This document shows, in pieces, positions 3,900 to 50,250 of a stretch of DNA of 64,000 nt. The notes under the pieces are model-generated. The model was given only the letters and a program-made list of their open reading frames with translations, was not told the DNA's origin and made no database searches. Each line of letters begins with the position of its first letter. The stretch's first letter is position 1. The stretch comes from Rosa chinensis. Taxonomy: Eukaryota > Streptophyta > Magnoliopsida > Rosales > Rosaceae. The DNA is taken from NCBI RefSeq assembly GCF_002994745.2, contig NC_037091.1, forward strand, positions 3,341,501-3,405,500, in the 5' to 3' direction. Position numbers and translations under genes: made by a program.

Positions 3900-4213
3900 C
3901 ATGTTGTGCCAAAAAAACAAACAGCTATGACAAAAAAAAATTATCTCCTTTGACGAGACGACAGATAAATGTCGTCTGAACAAAAAAAAAAAAAACAGAT
4001 ACAACACGAACCGAAATCAAATTTATCTCCTTTGATTAGACAACAGATAACTGTTGTGTGAAGACAAACCTAATTCTCAAAGCTAACTTACCATGGTATG
4101 TTGCTATATTCAGACGACAGTTTTTACACTGTCTGTCGTTAAAATATATCAGACGACAGAAACCAACCTGTCTGTGGTCTGATCTCTGTCGTCTGATGAG
4201 GTTATTGGCATAG
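3900..4213 (-). mobile_element. CACTA-like (En/Spm) non-autonomous element end
   Basis: Read on the minus strand from 4213 the sequence begins CACTATGCCAATAACC and then carries several copies of the subterminal motif TCAGACGACAG or its complement (for example near 4188, 4149, 4110 and 3955). CACTA ends and clustered subterminal repeats are the family hallmark. The gag homology of the adjacent copia element stops exactly at this CACTA. The other end, near 3900, is degenerate, so the length is uncertain. Confidence 0.55.
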
Positions 4214-4646
4214 TGATTAGCTCTTGCTCTGTGACAAGTTGTCCACAGAATCTCAACATGGATTGTAAGCGAAGAGCCTCTGAATTATATTCAGCAACAG
4301 ACTTGAAGTCAGCAAAGTGCAGATTGTTCCATTGAACCTTCAAGTCAGGGAGGAGGGAATCTTGGACATTGCCAAAGCGCTCTTCTAGCGCTACCCATAG
4401 CTCTCTTGCATCCTTGATCGACATATACTCCAATCTGAGTGCCTTATCCATATGGCGTCGCATCAAGATAACTGCTTGAGCATGCTTTGTAGATGTTCGG
4501 TTGAACACAAGATCCGGGTTAGGTGCCTGGATTATGGGTAATATTCCCTTGGAAGTGAGATGATTCTCAACATCGGTTACCCAACTGTGGTAATCCGAGC
4601 CTGTTGAGTCAAGCATGGGAAAGTCGAGTCTAGGTTCATTCGACAT
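4213..4646 (-). pseudogene. Ty1/copia retrotransposon gag fragment (UBN2-like), truncated
   Basis: This ATG-started minus-strand frame begins MSNEPRLDFPMLDSTG and shows the plant copia gag pattern: LDFPMLD...YHSWVTDVENHL, MRRHMDKALRLEYM, ELWVALEERFG and LRLQSMLRFCGQ. Gag forms the virus-like particle that packages the element RNA. About 145 residues are gag-like. The remaining residues, down to a stop at 4149, derive from the inserted CACTA-like element. No protease, integrase or reverse transcriptase follows, so the element is dead. Its probable LTR and proline/lysine-rich leader lie upstream at 4.7-5.95 kb. Confidence 0.8.
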
Positions 4647-7532: not shown

Positions 7533-7671
7533 ATTGAAGAGCTAGTTTGAGAGAGCCACAAAATCATGATCCAACTATGCTCAAATTTAGGAGTTGGTAG
7601 CCATTTCACTATTTTAGCAACGTACTTAGGGGCATGGTTGGAGAATTATACACACACACACACACACACAT

Positions 7672-8120
7672 ATCCTATCCAGAGTGAGACCTCGCTCTGA
7701 AATTAACGTGTGAGGTTGGAGTTTAGAGTCACTTTTCGGTTTCATATCCACATCTCGACCGTTCAGTTTTTAGGTACTAATGTATAGATCATCTCTACAA
7801 AATTTCAGCCAAATTGATGATCTTTAAGGTATCAAACTCACTTAAACCAATGGACGAACTGAATCTGTCCACCTTGAACCATAGTAGCTTTAAGGCAGTT
7901 ATCAACGCCTTAACGGCCATCAATTTGGCTGAAATTTTGCAGAGATGATCTATACATTAATTAGTATCTCAAAACTGAACGGTCGAGATGTGGATATGAG
8001 ACAGAAAAGTGACCCTAAACTCCAACCTCACACTTTAATTTCAGAGTGAGGCCTCACTCTGGATAGGATCTGATACCTCACACGTTAATTTCAGAGTGAG
8101 GCACCACTCTGGATAGGATC

Positions 8121-12059: not shown

Positions 12060-13273
12060 TAAAAAAAAACCAAACACAAGTTACTGATGGGATAGTGGCA
12101 TATCTCTCTCTCTCTCTCTCTCATAGCACACAATTAAACCCTGCAAGCTCAATTGGTTAGCCGATTCTTCTAAAAAAAATTTGGTTAGCCGATATAGTAT
12201 AAGTGAATAGGGCAATCTCGCATAAGATTGTATCTAAAAGCTAACCTAATGACTCGATTTTATACAAAACAACTAATTTGTCCACCTCTATAGATGCAAT
12301 TGGCAGACGACTCTATATTACTCAAAATGCTATGGGTGGACTTGGTGCGCGCCATCGATTTGGTTTAAGGGCATTAGCCTCTAAAGGAACCGATGGTTTT
12401 GGTTTCCTATTTTCTACAATCAAAACCAATCACAAAATTTAAAAACCGACACTATCGGTTCTGTTTCAGTTCAAATTTGGTTAATATCATACTATCCGTA
12501 TTAACTTTTCGCAAATTACCAAAGAACAAAAAAAAGAACAAACAAAATTGTAGTTCAATAGTAAAAGTAGAATAGAAAGATTACAAGAATAGCTTAGCAA
12601 AGTAATTAGTTCGATGCAACGAAACTTGATCAATCTGCAGCAAAAATTAAACGACAAAACACTTCGCTAGAAATGTTGAGTACAATGGTGAATGATATGA
12701 AACATTTTTTTATCAATTTGTATTCCTTGTTAACGTGTAGTAAAGAACTATAGAGTAGATACTATGACATCAGCTAAAGTTTTCATAAGAACAACAGATT
12801 TATGCAATATATATGCATATTCCAGTTTTGGATTTTTGGGTTGGGGGGACCAAATCCAGTAAATAAACAACTATTACCACGTTGTTAAGTAATATTCATT
12901 CACATGAGGAACACTAGATTCTATATTAGCAAATAAATCAGACTTTAAATCATCTTACCATAAAATTATTGAAGCGTACTTGAATTTGGCCAACTCCTGC
13001 AAGTTCATTATTGGCTTTGTTGATCTATCAAGTGAAGTTTCTCCACTTCTAAAATGCATAAAACAGTAAACAAGATTCACCTTAATAATTTAACATACTA
13101 AACCACTGACAAAAAAACTATTAAAAGAACTATGAAGCTTAATTAAAATTTCTTACTGGCCTCGACTTCCTCCAACTCCTTATAAAACCCAAGAGTCCCT
13201 TCACTTGGCTCTTTGAAAATACCTAGTACTGAATGCCCTGCAATCTTATAACTTGAGCTATATATATATATAG
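12060..13273. other. Intergenic, no gene seen
   Basis: AT-rich sequence with a CT run at about 12103-12122. No open frame with coding character and no repeat boundary were recognised. Confidence 0.5.
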
Positions 13274-13676
13274 AGGGCTTCCACTAAGGGATCCCTTTTT
13301 TTGGTCTTTTATAGGGATAGGCATTATACCAACTTTTAGATCATATTTTCACATCTTAACCGTTCAATTTTTAGGTCCTAATGTATAGATCACTTCTGCA
13401 AATTTTCAGCCAAATTGGTGATTGTTAAGGTATCCAAAACTGCAATTTACACGAACGGACCGAATCTGTCGAACCGGAACCGTTCGTGTTTATAATGGTA
13501 AATTGCAGTTTTGGATGCCTTAACAATCATCAAATTGGCTGAAAATTTGCAGAAGTGATCTATACATTAGGACCTAAAAACTGAACGGTTAAGATGTGAA
13601 AATATGATCTAAAAATTGGTCTAATGTCTATCCCTATAAAAGACTAAAAATAGGGATCCCTCACTAGAAGGGCCCT
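13274..13676. mobile_element. Palindromic (foldback) MITE, related to the 7.7-kb copy
   Basis: The ends are AGGGCTTCCACTAAGGGATC and its near complement GGGATCCCTCACTAGAAGG. The arms are almost perfect inverted copies meeting near 13475 (GTTCGTGT..ACACGAAC). The internal motif CTAATGTATAGATCAC is shared with the MITE at 7672-8121, so both belong to one family. It is flanked by TA runs, which hide any target duplication. Confidence 0.85.
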
Positions 13677-14049
13677 ATATATATATATATATATATCTTT
13701 TGTAAGTCAAGAACAAAAAATTGAATTTTCCCTGACAAGTAATGAGTACATTCCCACATATATTTTGATTACGAAAGGACTAGCCAGCAAGCTAACAAGT
13801 TTTTTTTTTTTTTTTTTTTATGGTCGAAGAGAAAGTTTTTTATTTTATTTTTTATCAAAGAAGAACTTCAAAGAAGCTATACATATACAGTACGTGGGAG
13901 AAATACAGAAATATACATAATAGTAGACGAGGAGGAGTTTCTAATACATATATAATCTAATACATAACAGTAATTCTACTAATACATACATACGTGGGAG
14001 AAATACAGAACTATACATATACAGTAGAAAATTTCCCAAAAAAAAAGAA
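13677..14049. other. Spacer upstream of the LRR kinase gene
   Basis: Contains TA and T runs and an approximate direct repeat of ACGTGGGAGAAATACAGAA (about 13892 and 13992). No gene. Confidence 0.5.
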
Positions 14050-14273: not shown

Positions 14274-17200
14274 ATGCAAGTCCCCAATTCTGAAGAAACC
14301 GCCCCGGTAAACCCCCAAACCCCTAAAGACCCCGAAACCTCCGATTCCAGTTCGGCAGTTGATGATGACGACAGTTCCGCTGCCGACGACGAGTCGTCCG
14401 TTCTCGATGTCTCCGGCAAAAGCTTGGATTTTTCAATTGGGGAGAATTCCGGCGACGGCGTCGGCGTCGGGGCTTTGTATTTGTACAAAAATGTGTATAA
14501 TTTATTGCCCAAGTCCGTCGGGAGGCTGAAGCGGCTGAGGACGTTGAAGTTTTTCGGGAATGAGATTAATTTGTTCTCTTCGTCGGAGTTTGGGAACTTG
14601 GTGGGATTGGAATGCTTGCAGCTCCGGCTATCGTCGCCGGCGTTTGATGGTCTGCCATTGCATAAATTTAAAGGCTTGAAGGAGCTGGAGCTTTCGAAAG
14701 TGCCTTCTCGGTCCTCGGCTATACCGATACTGAGTGAGATTGCTAGGCTCAACTGTCTCACCAAGCTCTCTGTTTGTTACTTTTCTATAAGGTAAGTTCA
14801 TTTTCTGCTACATTTGCTGCTGGAGATATTTGGATTGCAATTTTATTAGTTAGTGTACAAGTGGGTTCTAAATTGGTAGAGCTTATGGTCCTAGGAACAC
14901 TTATAAAGTTGTGGTGTTTAAAAAACTAAGCGCCGTAGAGGGAGGCTTAGGTAGGCTTAGCGAAGAGCAGGATGACTTCAAAGTGTGCTTGCTTTAGGTG
15001 GGTTTAGTTCTTGGAAGGATATCAATTTAGGATTTTCTTAATGATCTTTGCCATTGATGCCGGTGCTATACGTGGATACTATACATCAATTTAGGAAGAT
15101 GCCATCTTTGCATGCCATTAATTATATATTCCTGGATGGTATGATGCTCAGCTGCTAACAAACAGTAGTTACAGAAAGGAGAATCGGAAGTAATGGGATC
15201 AGGCATTGGGACCTTAATATGGAGGAGTTAAAACAGTGATGCACATCCTGGGCTATAATGTAGGTGCTGCTTGGCCAATTTAATATACTACAAAGACAGT
15301 ATATCTTAGAATAGTTATTGCATTGATGATTAATTGATTTGAAACGTGTCAACGGTGATTTGGGATCATTTGAGAGGTTCAATCCCATAAAGTGTTGTGT
15401 TATTCGCACATCAGAGTTGTGTTGGTGGTCTGGATTTTTGGGATCTGAAAGTAGTGTTTCATGATTATTACGTGGTTAGCTGTTTGTGGATTTTTTGTTT
15501 CAAATAATACAAAACAATCATTTTTTTTTTTGATAGAACAAAACAATCAATTTAGATTAACAATGTTTGAATGTCAGGCAATTAGGTCTCTATTACATGG
15601 TGACCATTGTTTTTCTCAGTTTATTATGTTGGGAAAAAGTTACCTTTCTTAACTTGGTTTATTTTGTGGTGTACTTCCTGCAGATACCTTCCTCCTGAAA
15701 TTGGCTGCTTAAGCAAGTTGGAATACCTAGATCTTTCATTCAATAAGATGAAGAGTTTGCCAGCTGAAATTAGTAATTTAAATGCCTTGGTATCGTTAAA
15801 AGTTGCCAATAATAAATTATCAGAACTACCTTTGGCTTTGTCCTCGTTGAAAATGTTGGAGAACTTGGACCTGTCGCACAACAGGTTGACATCATTGGGG
15901 TCCCTTGATCTTAGCTTGATGCGAAGCCTCCAGAATTTAAATCTTCAGGTGCTTGCTAAGAACCATGAACTAGGAGCATTATAATCAAGTATTCCTTTCA
16001 GGTTTTATACTCTTTTTAAAGTACATTAATTCCATTCCAGATTTTAATTCCTTGGATTGAGATTGCTCAACTACTTGAAAATCATATCTGTTGCTCTCTT
16101 CCGGGTGTTATTACTTTATCTCTGTTGTGCCCAGCCACCTAAACTCTTTATAAAGGAGTAAAGAAGCAATGTCTGGTACTCTGGTCAACATATAGGCTAT
16201 TATGTTACTTACTTGTGAGCACACACTTGATCAACTCCTGTTAATATCTCTGCATTACATTCTACATACATCTGTCAAATCATGTTGCAGTTCTCTCTCT
16301 CTCTCTCTCTCTCTCTCTAACACACAGACAGCTTAGTTTGTTTCATTTTACCTAATTTCCTTTCATGGAGAAAAAAAAGATGGTGAATTGGCTGGGCTTT
16401 CAGGTGAAGTCAAGTGGTAGGTTGCTAGGTTGTGCGGGAAATTAGCTGGTTGTGGGTTACTGGTTGTTAGGTGTAGTAGGGTGGTGGAGGGTTGCTGTAC
16501 GTTTTTTAAAACTGTTTTTTAATTTTTAGCAAGGGAAAAAATGAGAAAATTTAGGGAAAAAATGTGGGATGTCAGGTAAGGAAACTTGGATGTCTTATAT
16601 TCTATGCATTTTATTGACTTCCTTATAGAATTATTATTACTTAGCTGATATTTTAAGTTGGTATTTGATATGTGAACTTAGCATGGTTTTGATGGTTCTT
16701 TTTTTATGGTTCAGCACAACATGCTTCCCATCTACTGTCAAATACCTTCATGGATATGTTGCAATTTGGAAGGTAATGGAAAAGATATGTCCAACGACGA
16801 TTTTAGCAGTACCTCAGTTGAAATGGATGTATATGAAACCACCATTCAGAAGAATGATGAAAATCGTTTTCACACAGGTAAGGCTCTCTCTGTCTCTCTC
16901 TCTCTCTAATGTGTCTTGTATATTTAGAACCATTCTCATATTGCTTTTATTTGTGACAGGCTTTCATCATAGCTCATCGAGTATAGTTGGGCCTTCATCT
17001 AACAGTAGGTGTTTCACAACTCGGAGATCAGCTGGCCGGTGGAAGCGACAGTTCTTGCAGAGGAGAGCTCGTCAAGAACGCTTAAATAACAGCAGGAAGT
17101 CAAAAGGTCTGGATCTTCCTAAGCTGCACATGAAGGAGGATGAAGACTGCAAACCAGGCAATATAGATGCTACTTTTGAATCATATCGTGAAAGTGCACT

Positions 17201-20200
17201 GGACGTTATAAATTTGGATGATGATAATGATAAAAGTTTACTTTCTGGAGAAGATGAAGGTGTAAACGTCTCCCATGCTGCACATCATGACATGTGTTCG
17301 AAGGAGGAGCTTTCTGTAAGAAGTTGCTCATCTCTCAGGGTTAACTCTACTCTAGTAGATAATGGTGATAAAAAGGATTGTTACGAGAGTGATGCATCGT
17401 CAACTTGCAATCAAGAGGTTACTGGTGAGCATGATGACGTGCCATATTCAGGAAAATCCAAATGCAGTTCAAAGTCCAAGAGGCCACGAGATGGGGATCT
17501 TGATAATAGGAATCTTCAGGATCCCAAACGTTGGAAGTGTGGAGATTGTAGTTCAAGCCTATCTTGCAGAAACATGTCTTGCAAATATAGTAATATGTCA
17601 TTTTGCAGTGCTGAGGACCATCTTCCAGATGGCTTTTATGATGCAGGACGTGACAGGCCCTTCATGCCACTAGAGAGTTATGAGCAAATTTTCCATCTCG
17701 ACTCACGTGAAGTTATTCTTGTGGACAGGTTATTTTATGCAAGTTTTTATGTTGATGCAGATACATGTTACCCCTTTTGGTTCCTGGGTGGAATGCTAGC
17801 TTAACATAATGGCTCTTAACTCTAAATGCTGTAATTTTTATTTTGCCTTCAGGCTAAGGGATAAAGAGTTGGATGGAATTTTGTGCTCTGCCCGAGATAT
17901 GGTGTCTCAATTGAAGCAGTTAAATGGTTTAAATACAGATAGAGATCGGGATGATGAGCTACAGATTGCATTATATCTTGCTCTATTTGTATCAGATCAT
18001 TTTGGAGGGACTGATAGGGCGGCTCTTGTTGAAAGGAGACGAAGAGCTGGTGGTGGTTCAATATCCAGGAAGCCTTTTGTATGCACCTGCTCAATTAGGA
18101 ACTCTGAATCTATTAGTTTGAACCCCAAACAGTCTCCGGAGACTGTTGAAGATATTGCCTTTTCTGATATCTGTGAGAAATCTCTCCGTTCTATCAAAGC
18201 CAGACGAAAATCCGTTGTAGTACCTATAGGAACATTGCAGTTTGGTGTTTGTAGGCATAGAGCATTACTACTGAAGGTGATTCTTGTACTGACTTATTCT
18301 TTAATATCTATTTATTAGTATGTCTGTTGTATGCCTAAACATCTAGTTTGGTATTACTTTGTTGGCATAGTACCTATGTGATCGGATGGAACCTCCAGTC
18401 CCTTGTGAGCTTGTCAGAGGATACCTGGATTTCATGCCACATGCTTGGAATATTATATCAGTCAAGAAAAATGACTCAGCCAAGAGAGGTGACTCAATTA
18501 AGGGAGGTGACTTGGTTGAGAGAGATGACTCACGGATTCGCATGGTTGTTGATGCATGTCGTCCGCATGATGTAAGAGAGGAGACAGATCCTGAATATTA
18601 TTGCAGGTCAGCATCTTACTTATGTATGATTTCTTGGTAATTTCTTCAGTGCTGAATATGAAATGTTGGTTTTGTGTCACTATATTTTACTTCCTTACTG
18701 ACTTTGATTTGTCTTTGTAATGCTGAGTCTCTCTCATCTCTTTTTCTATTTCTGTTAAATTGACTAGGTCACTTCTAGTCTGATTATCAACTTGGCTTTA
18801 TTCAGAATCTTATCTCCTTTTGAGCACAAAACTTTGTATTACTCCGTTTGTTGTGGTTCGGTTATAATAAGTAGAAACGCCCAGGTTTTTGCTCTGTTTA
18901 CTGTATTCTGAACTTGTACATGTCTAGGTGTGTTTTTTGACTTTTTTTTCTTCGTCTTCTTCTTCCTTTTTTTTTTTTTTTTTTTTGAAGTTTTTATTAC
19001 ACATTAACCCTCGCCTCTCTTGGCTGTCTTCAGAATCTTAAGTTTTTTCTATTCCGAATTTCAAGTTTCTATTACCTACCTTCCCTGCTTCCGCTTTTTC
19101 TCTATTCAATTGATAATGGGCGCTGGTTTGAGCATCAACTTAGCTGTCCTCAGAATCTTATCTTCTTTTGTTCATTCTTCTTTCTTCTAAACTGTGGTGT
19201 GGTGTGGTGTTGTTTTCTTTTTCAATTCAAGTTCCTATTACTGATCAAAAGTAGCAGTGTGTGTCTTTAGTTATATTTATTTCTAGATATTCACTTGTAT
19301 GAGTTGTATAATATATTTTATGATGGTAGGTATATTCCTCTCAGTCGGGCCAAGGTTTCTTTCTCTGGAAGCAGCCCTGCTGATGTTTGTTTGTTTCCTT
19401 CATTGTCCTCTTCGGATGAAACTCAAACTGAATCCGGTAGTTCTCTTATTCGGTGTAAATATGGGTCGGCTGATGCAGCAGCAAAGGTATGCCTTTTGAA
19501 ATCTAACCAGGCTTATGCAGTTGTATAATTATTTTCTGGCCTTAATGACCCCTAGGCTTCTTAGAAGGTTTCATGATAGATCACATATTCTCAATTTAGT
19601 CTCTTGCTTGCATAGTTTTTTATCCAAGTGATTCTTGAAAGTCTATGTTTACGATTCTTACCAGGCTTGAACAAAATTTCATTGTTTAGGTTGTAGCTTA
19701 TGAAGTTTTCGTTTTATCTTGGTTAGGATTCTGTATGATGTTTCGTTGTCCTTTATTTCATTGTTGCTCTAAATTATAACCGTCATTTTGCTGGGGGATG
19801 CTGCAGATGCGTACTCTGGAGGTATATGGGACCTCAATGGATGATATTAGGAACTTTGAATACAGCTGCTTGGGTGAAGTTAGAATTTTAGGTGCTTTGC
19901 AACACCCCTGCATAGTAGAGATGTATGGACACAGTATATCATCCAAGTGGGCTCCTTCTATGGATGATAATTCTGGGCACCGTATATTGCAATCTGTAAT
20001 TTTCATGGAGTATATAAACGGGGGTTCCTTAAAGGTGAAAATTACTTGAGCTGGTTAAAAATTCCATTTTCTTGGTATTTATTTTCATCTTGTTTTAGTT
20101 ATGTTTTAAAGATTTTCGTTTCCATCATATGACAGGGTTACATAGAAAAGCTATCTAAAGCAGGTGAGAAGCATGTCCCTGTGGAGTTAGCTTTAAGCAT

Positions 20201-22031
20201 TGCTAAGAATGTTGCATGTGCACTGGTGGAGTTGCACTCAAAACACATTATTCATCGTGACATAAAAAGTGCAAACATTTTGATTGATATCGATAGGAAG
20301 ACAGCTGATGGAACACCTGTTGTGAAGCTCTGTGATTTTGATAGGGCAGTGCCTCTTAGCTCGTACTTGCATACATGCTGTATTGCCCATGTTGGGATAC
20401 CTCCTCCTGATGTTTGTGTTGGAACACCTCGCTGGATGGCTCCAGAGGTTCTGCGGGCAATGCATAAACAAAATATTTATGGATTGGTAAGTTCTCTGTG
20501 CGGTCAGTTTACTGGGAATCTCCTAGATAATTGTGCCTGCTGTATCTTTTTGCACTCAGTATAGTGATGCACTATCCGTGTACATCATGGACACATGTGC
20601 CTATAACTGTCCATTTACTACTGTAATTCTACGAGATTTAGTTTGGTTAATTACAAAGCAATAGATGTTTGTTGAAGAAGCATTTATTTGAGTTAGGAGG
20701 CTGACGTTATCAGAAATAGGTTATTCTATTTTACTGACAGCTTTTATGACTAAAAGTGAGACAAGTATTTGGTAACTTGGAGGAAGTCTTATAGTTTATT
20801 ACGCAAAGCTAGAACATGGAACTAGTTTCTGTTACAACTTTCAAGAATCCAGTTAGAGTCTAGTGCTACTTAGCTTTCTGATTGATGCATTATTATCGGA
20901 ATGAGGTTCTCTGTCTGGTGAGATTGATGAGTTGTCAAACATGTAGCAAGTTCAGCAATTCTCCTGTCACTGCTAATTGGTACAATAAAACTTGATGTTT
21001 AAATAACAATCTTCTGCAACAGCATTGATTTGAAATTTTAAGATTGTCTTTGACTTGTTGATATGTTGATGGCCTAGTATATGCCAAGATTGTTTGTGCC
21101 TAAATTTTGTGGCAAATACTTGGTTTCCCCTCCAGGTGTTAGTAAACTATTTGTATCAATCAAAAGTACATTACGCTGTTCTTGTGAATTTGGCATGTGA
21201 AGCATTTCAGTCTTCTTTTATAAAATATCCTTAAACAGCCGATGAAGTTCCACATGGTCCCTAAGGGTTCCAACCTTGTGTTATAGCTTTCTTCTTTCCC
21301 AAGTTGGTGAAGCTTTGCTTCTTCAAAGTGCTAAGTTTCTTTTCTTTCTGTTTACAGGAAGTTGATATCTGGTCGTTTGGATGCCTTCTTTTGGAGATGT
21401 TGACTTTGCAGATTCCTTACTTGGGATTATCTGAATTAGAGATTCATGACTGCCTATCGGTATTTCTCTCCCTCTCTCTCTGGCTGGCGAGTAGAATGTT
21501 TGAGGGGTCCATCTTGGACCAGTTTGACTTTATAAACTTTGTATACCTGACTAGTTGGTGAAAATAAGTTTTGAGTTATCCAGTCAGTGATTGGAGAAAG
21601 TGTGAATATGTTACTTTGAAAAGATATTGCGGCCTTATTCTAGTGCTCCCTTAGTTTGTTGGCTCAGTCGAGCCCTTGTGTGGACATACATTTGTGTTTC
21701 TAGGGTTAGCTAATTGGTTTATGTCAAATGCATAATTATTTGTGCTGTCAATATTTGCTTATTTTGTTAACTTCTAACTAGTCTGCTTATTGCTTGTCAT
21801 ATGTAGATGGGAAAACGACCCAAGTTAACAGATAACTTGGAGGCACTCCGGCCATTGGAGAAGCCTGCAATGGCTCAATCTGCTGAAGAGCTTGAGCAAA
21901 CAGAAGCTGACTTAGATGTACTAAGATTTCTGGTTGACTTGTTCTGCCAATGTACTGAGGAGAATCCGCAAAGTCGTCCAACGGCTGACAGCCTGTACAA
22001 ATTGTTGCTCGAACGCAGCACCCAGTTATAA
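14274..22031 (+). CDS. LRR, EDR1-type domain and protein kinase (At1g04210-like)
   Basis: Eleven coding exons join in phase: 14274-14791, 15684-15948, 16715-16877, 16960-17728, 17853-18276, 18371-18606, 19330-19486, 19807-20034, 20136-20486, 21358-21459 and 21807-22031. They give 1145 residues, close to the Arabidopsis relative as I recall it. Order: an acidic Ser/Asp-rich N-terminus; leucine-rich repeats (about 65-265); a basic patch (RRSAGRWKRQ) and a low-complexity linker; a region near 570-790 matching the EDR1/CTR1-type regulatory domain (GTLQFGVCRHRALLLKYLCD, GYLDFMPHAWN); and a kinase domain (about 800-1140). Kinase residues seen are K844 (last codon of exon 7), E868, HRD 960-962, N967 and APE 1022-1024. 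DFG is replaced by DFD (987-989), and the glycine-rich loop is degenerate. There is no signal peptide or membrane segment, so a cytosolic signalling kinase or pseudokinase is likely. The substrate is unknown. Confidence 0.9.
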
Positions 22032-35412: not shown

Positions 35413-35721
35413 TTAATAATTAAAGGATAAATGTACAACGAGGGGGGCATATATTACCTACACCTCAAGTACTAGTACAAGCATCCTCATATATATAGTG
35501 CATCCTGGATAATCACAAGAGCCTCATCTAACTAAGAATCGTCTAAGAAATCAATGCTAGCAAGGTGTGTCAATCTATGGGCTACACATCTGCTTCACGA
35601 TAGATAGAGCATAAATTAAAAGACGGAATTGCACGCAAATATGCTACACAATCCTCCACAATACATCCAACCTCAGAGAAGTCTACTATACCTCCTTTAA
35701 GTGCAGTAATCACCATAGCAG
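35413..35721. other. Spacer
   Basis: No gene or repeat recognised. Confidence 0.5.
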
Positions 35722-36010
35722 AATCATTTAGAGAAATGAAAGGGTCATTTATTTTGAAGAATAAGTAAGATTGTTAGTAGTTGATTCCGAAACTTTGAGT
35801 TACATCATTATTGTTTTTCAACCTTTAAAGAATTATGTTTCTTTCTTCTTTCATTTCAAATGTAAGTATTTTGCTCTGAGAGAAGAAAGAAACATAATCC
35901 TTTAAAGGTTGATAAACAATGATGATGTAACTTTAGGTTTTGAAGTCAACCACCAACAATTTTACTTACTTTTTGAAATCAATGGATTCTTTCATTTCTC
36001 TAGATATGAT
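35722..36010. repeat. Near-perfect long inverted repeat (hairpin)
   Basis: The left arm, 35722-35850, is complemented by 35878-36010. Examples are AGAATCATTTAGAGAAATGA against TCATTTCTCTAGATATGATT, and AACCTTTAAAGAATTATGTT against AACATAATCCTTTAAAGGTT. The loop is short. A transcript would fold into a hairpin of about 130 paired positions. It could be a MITE or an inverted duplication that yields small RNAs. Confidence 0.8.
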
Positions 36011-36404
36011 TCCATATCTAAGTCCATTAAAAATAACAACATATTGATTCTCTTCATTCTAATTATATATATATATTTTTTGTTTATTAGAATAAAAAAA
36101 CAATATATTGATTCTCTTGTTTGTTTCTTGTTTATTTGTGTGTTTTTTTTTATGTGTAATTAAGGTTAGAATTCAAAGTTGGTTATGAATCCCCAATTAA
36201 ACTACATCGTACTTGTACACCATATTAACGACAATTCCTATACTTACGAGTTCAATTGGAATTTCACAACATGGTGTGCAACCAACCAAGTCCTTACAAG
36301 ATCATATTGGAGGTTCTCAACTCAAATCCAGCATCCAGCCACACGGCACCAACCGATTGCTCAAACTTCGAAACCACCTGTGCCGCCAACTCAGTTTGGC
36401 ATTG

Positions 36405-42436: not shown

Positions 42437-45400
42437 CTAACAATAAAACATTACTCTCTTCACATTCTCCTTTAAAGCTGGCAATGGCCGGACTCCAGAC
42501 TCTCCTGCAGCCCGTGTGCCCTTAGCAGCATGACCAATAGAGCTATTATCCTGCAGATCTGGCTCCATATAGAATCGGGCACGAAAAGCAGCCAAATGGG
42601 CATAATATGCCGGAGGTACTGCATAAGATTCCACAGAATAGGTCCATTGCAATTAAAACTTTAAGGCAGATAATTTTGAATATAGAAATGATTGTGCGCA
42701 AAAATTACTCAACAGAACATGGAACAATGGCTTACCAACAGACACAGAGCGCGTGCACCTTGCATATGTGTAGCAAAGATTGTTTGTCAACGACTGGATT
42801 CCATCAGGGGTAAAATTATTCTCATCCCAGAGAACATGGTAGTGAGCTGGCCGACTTGTCCCCTGCAATATAACACTCTTAAATCCCATACAGAGAAATA
42901 AAGGAACAGAGAGAGCAACAGATAAATAAACTCTTTACCTGAATACCAGCATGGCTGCAGAGATAGAAATCAAATTCTGTAGGATGGCATATCTTGGTAT
43001 CAACTACAGTGCCTGAAAACAATACAACAATAATATAAAGATGGAGAACACCTCGTATTGTAATTCTCTAAAACATGTGAGATAAAACAAGTTTCCAAAG
43101 ATAGTTTAACCTTCAACCAAAAAAAGAAGAAGAAAAGACAAGTGTAACCTTACCAGGCAATATGTTGCCACTCTTGTCTACACTGCTTCTGTCCCTATGG
43201 TTATTAGCAAATAATCGTGTATGGTGCCGCTTCTGTACTACAATGAAAGTCACCGGCGGTTGATAGTTGGGTTCCAGAGAAGCACACGCCTGTATGCAGA
43301 TTACTACTTATCAATGCGGCAAAAAATCCCACCTTTATCTCTAGTAACTCAATAATGGTGATAAAGAAACAAAATATATGAAGTCTGACCTTCCTAATCG
43401 CATCAAGCTCATAGAGTAAGACCTGATAAAATTGCCCTTCACTTACGCCATCCCTGCTTGGAATTATTTTATATTAGAAAAGGACAAAACCGCAAAAGAA
43501 ACAAAAGACTACTTGAAGCATAACCCAAGTGTCTGTTACATACTTGCAGTTCCAATTTGGAATTTGGTCACTTAAAGTGCCCACTAGGAATACAAATTTT
43601 ACCTGTAAAATATAATCCTGAGAGGCTTCTGCCCTGTTGCTTTCCTAAAGGAAACCAGAAGATCCCTGCACAAAAGAGAACATGACATTAAGATGCATGA
43701 ATTATAATATTTTGGGCAAAATTTTCAGACATAATGTTAACACCTCACAAAAAGAGTAAAAGGCAATATGTTTATAGTACATAGTATATGCAAGCAGAAA
43801 GGAGTTTGGGGGAATATAATATGCTTGTATAGAAGAAAATAAGAGGAGTATAGATTCGGAAAGTTCCAAGGAAGTGAATGTTAAGAGTTCCCATACCGGA
43901 TCATACCGCCACTGACTGTGCCACGAACAGGGTCCTGCCATGTCTTGTACAAATCTTGTATCAGTTCCTGTCTGTGAGCTTGAGCACAAACTAACCCAGC
44001 ATATTTGGTCACTTCCGGCCAATCCTGGGAAGCCACCACCTACAGAAGTAAAATCATCAATTATCCATTAGCATCAAAGGTCTCAACTCTCAACATTGAA
44101 GTTTCATGTGGTAAAGGTAAAGATAATTGAAGTTTCATGTGGTAAAGATATGTACCGCAGCAATCGAGGGACTGGTATCTTCTCCATTCTCCGGGTGAGT
44201 CACGTCTGCTCCGAAAATTATGGTTGGTATATCACTGACTAAAGGTATCCTGCAGCTAATAGCATCCAAAAGAACAGTGTTTCTGCCACCCATCTGCAGC
44301 ATGGATGAGTCCAAGAACCATCAGGATTCAATAATTTATAGAGCCATAACACAGACAAGGTCAAGACTGATTAAATAAACCTTGAGAAATGAATGAAATA
44401 GTCTTCCATGACCACACAACAGCCATTACTTTTTCCATAAAATTGTTAAAGACAAATAATTAAGAATGTATTTTCATCTCAAACTCGTGACTTTATCTTA
44501 AGTAGAATGTCTTAAAATCAGCTCATCCACCTGGCACTCTTTTAGTCTTAAATTGATTATAGACAAATGCAGTAATGAGCTACACAATGCACTGAAACTA
44601 ATTTAGAAACTTGTAAGATTCATGCATGCATAAGATTTGGGGATTGAACAAACCTTAACATTAATCTTAAGAGACACATTAGCCAAATACTGTTTGCTAA
44701 TCTTGAAAACATGCTTTGTAAGACAGCATTGCGAGATTAATCCAAGATCTGTTTCACATATTCGCTTGATATCACCTAAAATAGCAGAATCAGGTTAGAA
44801 CCAAGTATATGATTCAAGTCATTTTTAAGCAAATCAAGCTCAGAGCTCAATGAAAAAAAAAATTAAATGGAATTATGACAAGTACGACCTACCATACAGG
44901 GACCCGTTGTTGTCAGGCAAAATAGCCAATAAGAGCTCTAATTCTTTTCCTTTTGTTTTGTTCATGGATGCATGATATACATGTTTCAAAGCTTTCTCTA
45001 CTTGCTCAGGCCTGGCATTGTAGATTGGAATTACAGGTTCTGGATTAAATTCCTACAAGACAGCATAACAAAGTTATAACCCCATACAATTATAATAAAC
45101 GAGAAGGCATCACATATAAAACAAATAAATACCATGCCAGAGACTTGACACATCTGACCAAGTTCACTACAAAACCCACGAGCAACACTCTCCTGCACAC
45201 TCCGTGAGAAGTTAATACAAGCCCACCGGCTAACTGTCATTCCATTGATCATTTTCTGCAATACATTAAAAGCAGGAAACACAAATATCAGAGGTAGACA
45301 CTAAGACTGATAATCCCCTTCTAATGCCTGAATAACATTAGATGAAATTATGAAATGCAAAAGTTCTATAAAACAACATGTTCAATTGAACTAAAAGGGT

Positions 45401-48400
45401 CTTAAGTGGTGATTAGGATTTGTTTGCTGATTACGCATAAACTGTTACAAGCATTACAAATATGACAAACAATTTTGCCACGAATCAAATACATTAAATA
45501 TAGAGTGCTTAAATTCAGCAAGTATAGTACCTTGTTCATCATATTCCACTGACCTACTTGAGGCAAACAATTCTTTTCTTTTCCTGTCTCATGATATTTC
45601 AGCTGCAGGTGAATTTGACGTTAGATGCTTAACCATGATAATATATTCTTAATCAAACATTAATATGTTATCAGGGAAAACATTACCCAAGGGCCGGAAG
45701 AATTCGAGCCTCAACTGAAGCGAGCTTTTCACTGATTTTGATCCCAAACTCATTAGCATAAGGGTCTTGGTCATAAGCATTCTGTTGAACGGTCTGCTTG
45801 TGTTTGAAAACAATAGAATATATCATTACTTGTATGAGAACAACAACAAAAAGGTCGCATACTATCAACAACATACATCAATAACATTATATCATATATA
45901 CGTAGCTATTCTTTTACTCCCTAGGTAGCATAGATGCTCCAGAGTTTGCATGAAGAAATCTTGAAATGACTCCATTTTCTTTGCATTAACTTCACAACTA
46001 TAGCGAACCAGTTTATTGAAACACTACAATTCATTTTCTCTCTACTCTCAGTCGGTAGTAAACCAACCTAAGAGCCAATTTCTAACCCTTTTTCCCTCAT
46101 ATCCCACCACTGATTATGGAAATAGAATATTTCCTTGTGAGGAATGCAACTAAGCAAGGAAAGCAAAATAAAATTTGGCTATATGACTAAACTATCAAAA
46201 ATTACCTGGAGGATGTCATTTTCACGATCCCTAGGCCTTTGACATGTAACTTTTAAGAGAGCAGTAATTTGTTTTTCATTCAACCTTTTTGTATATCGTT
46301 GCCCCTCAACAATTTTGCAGGCCTGCAAAAATTGAAGTATGTGAATTCACGACAAGACTCGTGAAAAGAAAATTGTGAGTAAATTTTCATTAGGAATGTG
46401 ACATGTTGGGTGGCTAGTTGGGTGACTATGACCGACCTCCATGGGTAAATAATTAGCCTTCTTCTGATTTCCGCCAACTTGAAGGCAAGGAAGATGTCCA
46501 TGTTGAATTGTGAATCCATACATCTCCTGGAAGTATTCAATTACTGACTTCATCGTCGAGTTCTCATCAACAGGAAACCTGACCAAAGATAACATCAGCA
46601 TACAGCATCTAGAACACTAGCACAAGTCGATCAAGAATCAAGAAAAAGAAAAGAACTACAGCTTCTATTCCTTTAAAAAAAAATGCAAGTATCTAAAAGC
46701 CTGAATGAGCATATTTATGCTATTGTCAAACTTACACAAGCTCTCTTGTAGGTTGAGATGTCAGTCCCGATACTCGATACTTTCTTCGAACACTCCCTCT
46801 GTGGGTAACTTCAACTTTCACCCCTCTAAGAGCCTTCTTAATCTGGCACACATATAAAAGTACATACTACATTAAATTAGATACTAAGGATAACACACAC
46901 ACACACACACAGAGTTAGGAAGATCACCTTTACACGGTCAGCATCAGACAATGTCCTAGATAGTACATCTTTTCCCAGAAGCTGGGCTACAAACTCTATT
47001 ACAGGAAGAGGCTCAATAAATGCAGCTGAAGCCATATCTGCAAAATGTGAAGATAGAGGAACGAAATATGAGACAGGTCATCTGAGAATAACCATTAGCA
47101 ACTTTTGAAATACCAATTAACAGCCAATTACTCACCAATATTGAGGGAAAGACCCATTTGGGTAGGCCTTATACTTTGGTAAAACCCACACCATGACTCC
47201 AACCCCTCACCAAGCCGTTGTGGTGTTCGGATATTAGGTGAAAAGAAGGATCTCCCGATGGGACAGTACCTTCACCAGTGAAGTATTCATTAGGTGATTA
47301 ATAAACTTCTATCTCCACACCAGAACAGTGTACCAGTCACAAGTTTTATGAAAAAATTTACCTTTTTGATGAGAGCTCTCTTAAAACAATGTCAAGAATT
47401 TGGAGGGCCTCCTGGGGAGCATCAGCACATTTACCGGCTAGAAACTGGCTCAAATGATACATGTTCGCTCGAGCAACAAATTTAATCACCACTTTATATT
47501 CCCTTTCTCTTCTGAAATATTATACAGAGGTATTGAAAGTTAATCCTACTGGATATACGTTGATAAATCAAATTGCTCATCATACATTCAATCTAATACA
47601 GAATCACGATATATTCTTGGAAGTGCCTTTCACTTTTTATGTTATTTCTCGTTATGTTATAGGGTTCTATGATTTTTCTTACCCATCTTATTTTAATCCA
47701 ACTGATTCTAAGATAAATCCTAAAGGAACAAGGAGGCAATGTCCTTACTTTCGGCCATCGATTCGTTCTTCTTCATCAGTAAGTTTGATGTTAAACTCCT
47801 TCCAAACAAAGGGTAGCTCACCAGCAGTATACAGACTCTTTCTACCATCATAAGCGGGCAGTCTCATTCCTAGGTCAGATTCTCTGTACAATCTCACCAG
47901 TTCGGCCATGATAGCTCTGTTCACAACTCTCGATGTAACTTCGGGGGTAATGCAAACCTGCAAAAGTCAGTCCACTGATGGTGAAAAGGCAAACAAAACA
48001 TTTAGAACAAAATTTAAGGCCAAAACTTAATCTCATAAATGCTAGTTGAAGTAAAGGACACGGTGAAAACAGTAAACTTTTCAAATTTCTTCTGCAATGC
48101 AACAGCAACTGTGAAAATATTAATAGTCAGATTAAGGTAAGGGGGCCCAATTTCTATTACACAACAGAAACACCAAATTAATTTTTGGCTACAGCACATC
48201 AGTAAGCATGTCTGGTAACTCCTTATCCATCAAAATAATTATAAGAAAAAGACCCATCAAAGAAAAAACAACTCACATCATAATGGTTCAAGTCCTTGTC
48301 TGGTAACTCTGCGAAGAAATGGTTGGCCTTTACAACACACTTTATCCCAGCTTGTCCATAGCCAGGCCTAGGTGCAAAGCTCAATGACTTACTGGAAGTG

Positions 48401-48777
48401 GGAAAACCCATCTCCATGGCACACGAATTTCCACCATTTTCCAAGGACTCATTTGTAGTACTACTAACTAAAGCACCTCCTCCAGCCAAGTTTGGTGAGG
48501 CTGGAATATGAGCCACCGTGCAGTGCCTTGAACTTGGCCGCATAAAAACATCACCTTGATCAGACTTCCGACCACCTCTCCCCCTTCTCCTTCCTCTGTT
48601 CTTAGTTGGAGGTGAAGTTTGGTTCTGAGTTTTGGGGTTTTGAGGTTCTGGGGTTGGTGGGCCTTTGCCATTTTGGCCAGTCTTGGGTGCCTTCTGAACT
48701 GGGTTTGCTGTGTTCTGTAAATGGGTTTTGATCACAAGGTGTTGCTCTGAGCTCTCCTTCATTTTCCTGATAGGCAT
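42437..48777 (-). CDS. AGO10: ARGONAUTE10 (PINHEAD/ZWILLE) small-RNA effector
   Basis: There are 21 coding exons: 48777-48277, 47957-47749, 47511-47362, 47269-47136, 47037-46928, 46842-46736, 46578-46437, 46322-46206, 45793-45687, 45602-45531, 45255-45133, 45052-44893, 44775-44654, 44293-44156, 44039-43897, 43665-43603, 43453-43390, 43289-43154, 43012-42939, 42862-42736 and 42618-42437. The start [14 protein letters not shown] and the [15 protein letters not shown] segment are AGO10-specific. N, PAZ, MID and PIWI parts follow in order; the C-terminus is RVMFYC. PIWI residues look intact: GADVTHP, DWPEV, RDGVSEG, HYHVLWD. AGO10 sequesters miR165/166 and maintains the shoot meristem. Exon 9 is 107 bases instead of the in-phase 108 (CCGGCCCTTGG at its end), so the frame breaks near codon 526. 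Otherwise the product would be about 993 residues. This is either a real null allele or a base-call error. Confidence 0.95.
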
Positions 48778-50250
48778 GTTTGGTAACCAGAACTGATATA
48801 CTAGAAAGCACAAGCCTTTGTTCAAAAAGAGACCCAACTTCACCAGATTTCACACTAACAAAGTAGTCTTCCCTTTCAGTCTTACTCAATTCTCCAAAGA
48901 TTCAATACTTCTTACTCTGAAATACCCAAAAACAAACACAGAAAAACTGCACGTCAGCCGAAAGTGACCGATTCTCCAAAGATTCAATACTTCTTACTCT
49001 GAAATACCCAAAAACAAACACAGAAAAACTGCACGTCAGCCGAAAGTGACCGGAAAAAAAATTACCAAAACAGTGAATAACTAGACACAATAATGAGATT
49101 TCATCACTCTTATAAGTAAAAAAGTACGGGTAAATAAATGACCAGACTTTGTTTTCATTGAAGATGAAAAGCATTACTATTCCTTTGCTAAACTGAAAAA
49201 ACCAACTATTCACCTCTATTTCAGCAGATTTACCCTTTTACAAAATACATACAAAACTGAAATCCAAATCTACAGAGAAGCAACAGCTACACTTTCTTCT
49301 TTGACTTGATATTACATAGCCATCCAATAAAAAAAAAATAAAACAAATCAATAATCAATCTCAAAGATTTGCTAAAAAGAAACACAGAACAAGAAAGCCA
49401 AAACAGAACTTGCAGCTCAGTATCAGCTTTGCAACTTGAATAAAAAAAAAATTAAAAATGCAAAGAAAATCCAAGTCATTACCCAAAACCCAAAGTGCTC
49501 CTTCAGATGCTTCTATAAGCAGCCCAATGAGCGTGAATCTTCCAGACAATAACAATAAAAATAAGAGTGAAGAGGAAAAAAAAACGAATAGAAACTAGGA
49601 AAATGGAGAAACCCAGGAGACAAAACCATTGTTTTGAGCCTGTCTGCACCCCAAAACTGAAAATTTGTGATCACCCACAACAAAATGAATAAGCCCAAGC
49701 AGATAAAAACAGAGACAAAAACATAGATGATAAATATCCCAGAGGAAATATAATAATAATATTAACAGTGTAGAAGACAGATTTGAAGCAAAGCTTGTGA
49801 GTTGTGAGTCTGCTATTAGTAAAACAGAGTAAAAACACCCAGAAAAAGCCAAAATTCAAGAACAAAACCAAGGAGAAGGAATAAACTTTGAAAAGGGTAG
49901 TAAAATCACTATCTGAAGGATACCCAAAATTAATGCCAAAGAGAAAAAGCCACCATCATTAAACACCACAGAGTCCCAACACCAACAAAGAAGCTCAAAA
50001 CTCACCAACCAACAGTTAATTTAAGCTTAAGTTGACTCCTTGAGACAAACAATTCAAAGCAACAACAATGTTCTTGAAGACGATCACGAAAAAGAAACCC
50101 GGATAGGATTGAAAGTCTTTGAGCTGACAAAAACAAAGGTGAAGTGATTAAAAGGGTGGCAAAAGGGGGAGGGATTTAAAAGATGGGGGGTTGTGTTGGG
50201 GGGGGGATTCAGATTCAGCTAGAGAGAGAGAGATGGAGTTGGTAGAGAGA
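48778..50250 (-). other. AGO10 5' UTR exons and leader intron
   Basis: A 5' UTR exon (48916-48778) precedes the ATG and has a TTTTTGGGTATTTCAG acceptor. A plausible first exon ends at 50006 before GTGAGT, giving a leader intron of about 1.09 kb. Transcription probably starts near 50250, downstream of a TATA box. The exon limits are inferred from splice consensus only. Confidence 0.5.
48889..49052. repeat. Perfect 82-bp tandem duplication across a splice acceptor
   Basis: The sequences 48889-48970 and 48971-49052 are identical as read. Each contains the pyrimidine tract and CAG acceptor of the AGO10 leader intron (acceptor boundaries at 48916/48917 and 48998/48999). Confidence 0.9.

Follow-up and report, generated by a model that had tools for sequence, protein, structure and literature searches.

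The window analysed here, 64,000 nucleotides of Rosa chinensis DNA, corresponds to C4:3341501-3405500 of a 515,083,735-base, 53-contig assembly. The minus strand carries the coding region of an ARGONAUTE10 (AGO10) gene at 42437..48777, with the ATG at 48777 and the TAG at 42437; its 21 exons were obtained from the gene model, the spliced alignment and the match to 7sva. All 20 introns were GT-AG in the gene model and in the spliced alignment to three full-length relatives. On the plus strand, an LRR and kinase gene, which we take to resemble Arabidopsis At1g04210, occupies 14274-22031; it has 11 exons totalling 3438 nt, every one of them in frame. Three fold-back-like stretches (7669-8072, 13259-13691 and 35721-36012) matched their own reverse complements at 80-86 percent, and a 165-aa frame at 4149-4646 (minus strand) resembled by eye the beginning of gag in a Copia-type retrotransposon.

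The best solved match of the AGO10 protein, taken as its two halves joined by XX, was Arabidopsis AGO10 (7sva), which was covered at full length (residues 1-993). The similarity was to AGO10 rather than AGO1, and the named top matches were largely AGO10 among the 120 listed of 1518. Strawberry was the nearest named relative among the matches listed: Fragaria x ananassa AGO10 (P0002) was the same at 964 of 991 aligned residues, with differences at 27 of 990. For the protein P0001, 974 of 991 aligned residues were the same (differences at 17 of 990), so that chance similarity is no issue. The PIWI catalytic motifs of AGO10 were matched at their presumed positions, HRQELIQDL was present in the translation and PF02171 matched exons of the gene.

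The 5' leader of the gene contains an exact tandem duplication of 82 bp (48889-48970 and 48971-49052, minus strand; 100 percent, 2.0 copies), which lies 110-275 bp ahead of the AGO10 start codon. It is either very young or an assembly artefact, and is a second oddity of the gene, separate from the frame break described below. By eye, each copy contains the 3' end of the presumed 5' leader intron including its AG.

A single open reading frame through all AGO10 exons was absent in the assembled sequence. Exon 9 (45687..45793) is entered in phase 0 and ends with GGCCCTTGG followed by GTAATG; it has 107 nt, one short. It is followed by intron 9 (45603..45686, 84 bp, GTAATG...TGCAG) and by exon 10 (45531..45602, 72 nt), which starts with CTGAAATATCAT, all on the minus strand. 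Joining the two exon ends gives a frame that reads ...ILPALG and then, after the first base of exon 10, meets a TGA at 45601-45599. The assembled frame is thus 526 residues long and stops ahead of MID and PIWI. The sequence was open on both sides of the break, with 525 codons upstream and 467 residues downstream. When P0001, P0002 and P0003 were aligned to the locus with a spliced aligner that permitted frameshifts at any position, exactly one frameshift per query was obtained, at 45695-45693; the break site is given as 45691..45695 (minus strand), with the short CCC run at 45693-45691. A sequence-only reading of this stretch had proposed the same exon 9 length and end at 45687-45697, a base missing from a short C run, all other exons in phase and intact catalytic residues, and the gene model, the spliced alignment and the PIWI motif matches bore it out on each of these. 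It had also pointed to Pro-Ala-Leu-Gly where the family has Pro-Ala-Pro-Trp; PAPWLKY was indeed found in 115 of the 120 listed homologues and PPPWLKY in 4, with neither in P0116, and the solved Arabidopsis AGO10 (7sva) carries PAPW. The exon 9 pattern was absent from the prokaryote genome contigs searched, as expected.

Apart from the break, the gene was well preserved. None of the 335 testable near-invariant columns was violated by the window AGO10, the 207 homologues used for comparison (those longer than 840 residues among 239 fetched) having a median of 0 violations, a 90th percentile of 4 and a maximum of 23. Nine private residues, one of them inserted, were found against five relatives; eight mapped to the variable segment at the N terminus or to the C-terminal tail, and the ninth was C169. 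The intact conserved columns and the few private residues indicate that selection on both halves of AGO10 lasted until very recently, and the lack of other decay implies that the break is either very recent or absent from the plant.

It was considered that the locus might be a decaying duplicate, with an intact AGO10 elsewhere in the genome. Tandem Argonaute genes do exist here, among them two of AGO1 type on C7, and such a copy could be missing from the assembly. When the DNA of exons 8-10 was searched against the whole assembly, however, the gene's own copy was recovered at 100 percent and the only other matches were three on C7 at 68-75 percent; a second copy at the AGO10 level was not found in the 515 Mb, and those C7 matches were rejected as one. 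We regard a decaying duplicate as very improbable. A named rose AGO10 model was also sought, but no Rosa name appeared among the 120 matches listed of 1518 for the joined protein or, for its first half, among 120 listed out of 494, both weak negatives because the matches are 90 percent-identity clusters with shortened or missing names. A literature search on AGO10 or the argonaute gene family of Rosa chinensis gave no study of rose AGO10; one of the papers, PMC6747050, refers to RcAGO7 and to 12 genes of small-RNA pathways in a supplement.

The deletion could also be real and be bypassed by splicing. For splicing between exon 9 and exon 10, pairs of a GT or GC donor with an AG acceptor that restored an open frame were ranked. 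A weak upstream donor, for example, might serve at the cost of a few residues. Several combinations gave frames that stayed open over 940 to 990 residues, but the donors of the 20 best combinations scored -0.5 or less. The normal donor scored 6.3, and 30 true donors from two genes of the window scored between 4.2 and 11.7; the donor matrix was made from these same 30 sites and is thus biased in their favour. No frame-restoring splice site among these 20 was credible, and the use of a different donor, named in the sequence-only reading as a way out, was rejected. With exon 9 skipped, the frame would run on to the normal stop (957 residues), but a conserved stretch ahead of MID, the end of which is nearly invariant, would be lost. 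Retention of intron 9 led to an immediate stop (GGG TAA). A bypass by either route is considered improbable, if slightly less so than the duplicate.

Other Argonautes of the same assembly served as control genes. Two AGO1-type genes lie in tandem on C7. The first aligned unbroken with two of four queries; with P0002 a break fell in low-complexity sequence near the N terminus, and with P0176 one fell at residue 827. The latter break was found at a matching position in both AGO1-type genes and was therefore ascribed to the query P0176 and rejected as a clean break. The translation of this first gene contained two stops within an apparent short unspliced intron. The second AGO1-like gene (L010 and L030, C7:416805-422115) was otherwise open and well conserved but showed two clean single-base losses, at GGG (C7:418272) and at CCCCC (C7:417008). 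It had no in-frame stop and violated 3 of the 335 near-invariant columns; R replaces W in its PAPW motif, a change it shares with 4 of the 201 homologues that have a residue at this position. Three further loci might, as a guess, be AGO5-like: L011 and L014 aligned unbroken with both queries, and L015 did so with P0198; with P0002, L015 showed one break, located in the variable tail. Breaks at low-identity Argonaute loci were left uncounted; of three such stretches read (L002, L003), the first and third look like introns.

The remaining controls were large-exon families of the same assembly, with domains matched nearly full length in one frame, and their tables were screened for adjacent rows continuing each other in another frame. 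The full-length rows counted were 16 of 38 for KCS and 52 of 78 for GRAS, 16 of the latter lying in a tandem cluster at C5:71.3-71.8 Mb; 13 of 30 Exo70 rows and the best 10 of 57 HSP70 rows were also counted, and the LRR and kinase gene of the window was included in the total. With the GRAS cluster excluded, no clean one-base break was found in the 88.5 kb of conserved coding sequence in the counted rows, some genes of which sit in small tandem groups. From this, the expected number of breaks in AGO10 is at most about 0.10 (95 percent bound, counted rows). Because full-length rows were used and the others were mostly unread, the count is favourable and able to miss breaks. Left unread were, for KCS, 21 of the 38 rows in addition to parts of the copy on C7 (the 16 full-length rows being counted); for GRAS, the rows beyond the 52 and two clean pairs (C5:71690, with a stop, and C2:30985 among them); for Exo70, 17 of 30; and for HSP70, 47 of 57. 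Split rows with a spacing of about 360-730 bp were treated, unread, as introns. Some of the unread rows overlap in different frames and may contain additional breaks.

Within the C5 cluster, two pairs of GRAS rows each represented a clean break, and the 1.5 kb around each fitted a single missing base (L031, C5:71460800-71462300; L032, C5:71632900-71634400). Together with those of the AGO1-like gene, this makes four clean single-base losses outside AGO10, all in tandem-group genes. The strongest broken KCS copy, at C7:43370316-43371181, was rejected as a clean break, because on reading it proved to be a pseudogene carrying an 8-bp duplication and a stop early in the frame. HSP70 matches were crowded at C1:57.1-57.45 Mb (G000); most ended near domain position 500, and some contained stops.

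AGO10 of Arabidopsis binds miR165/166 and maintains shoot stem cells (PMC4565019, PMC5322904); some accessions need it for these cells, while in others it is dispensable (PMC4046819, PMC4565019). A real deletion would leave a product of 526 residues comprising N, L1, PAZ and part of L2, without MID or PIWI, which by established knowledge of Argonautes would be unable to load or hold miR165/166. Furthermore, 11 junctions lie downstream of the stop in exon 10, so the mRNA should undergo nonsense-mediated decay. The sequenced line would then be a natural AGO10 null and a ready test of the extent to which AGO1 can stand in for AGO10. If the deletion is an error, the assembly shows a conserved meristem regulator as broken, gene models and knock-out lists derived from it would be wrong, and the AGO1-like gene on C7 may likewise be miscalled.

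The sequence-only reading had left open the choice between a loss-of-function allele and an assembly error; the evidence now leans to the error, which is unproven. We consider it probable that AGO10 is intact in the plant and that the missing base is an assembly error. The one-base deletion in the short C run would then be a consensus error left unrepaired by polishing. This is favoured by the occurrence of a single break across a 21-exon gene, by the unviolated near-invariant columns, by the finding of no second copy that might relax selection, and by the similar losses in the AGO1-like gene on C7 (two) and in two GRAS genes (one each). The clean breaks elsewhere and that of AGO10 would on this view reflect base calling or consensus rather than mutation. 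Against this, breaks were uncommon, with none in the counted 88.5 kb; AGO10 has many other C and G runs, three to five bases long, that are in frame; and the AGO1-like gene and both GRAS genes belong to tandem groups and could be truly decaying. The controls therefore cut both ways: errors per 3-kb gene were uncommon, yet a few well-preserved genes showed unexplained single-base losses. A 2019 review (PMC6499834) describes the homozygous Rosa chinensis 'Old Blush' assembly as 515 Mb in 82 contigs from Illumina and PacBio data, and we infer that the present assembly was sequenced in the same way. If it is this homozygous assembly, as seems likely, the comparison with the other haplotype proposed in the sequence-only reading may be inapplicable, there being no second haplotype in it. 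PMC6786968 describes an independent PacBio assembly, probably of the same rose cultivar, for which short reads were needed to correct 307,700 indels in 512 Mb, a count that illustrates how common indel errors can be before polishing.

The main competitor of the assembly error is a real, very recent loss-of-function allele, which we hold to be unlikely but well ahead of the other alternatives. The assembled sequence itself shows it, breaks were uncommon among the control genes, and a null line could live, given that loss of AGO10 is dispensable in some Arabidopsis accessions (PMC4046819). However, there was no further sign of decay in AGO10 and no replacement copy was found, and fresh nulls in such a conserved single-copy gene should be rare, rarer than assembly errors, which is a general prior rather than a measurement. 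Since loss of AGO10 is tolerated in some Arabidopsis accessions, viability cannot decide between an error and a real null. It is unlikely that the sequenced line, probably a homozygous rose, has truly lost full-length AGO10 by a fresh one-base deletion in the sole copy and survives with the AGO1-type genes covering.

Compared with known systems, the window gene is like plant ARGONAUTE10 (PNH/ZLL), such as 7sva and P0002, in its full-length match to 7sva and its catalytic motifs. It departs from this group at the end of exon 9, where PAPW or PPPW stands in 119 of the 120 listed homologues and the window frame is broken. With regard to the residual single-base indel errors of long-read assemblies, most of the conserved domains counted here were clean, and such an error is unproven at the AGO10 site; what AGO10 has in common with them is the loss of one base at a short run while the rest of the gene is intact, a pattern also seen at the other clean breaks in this assembly.
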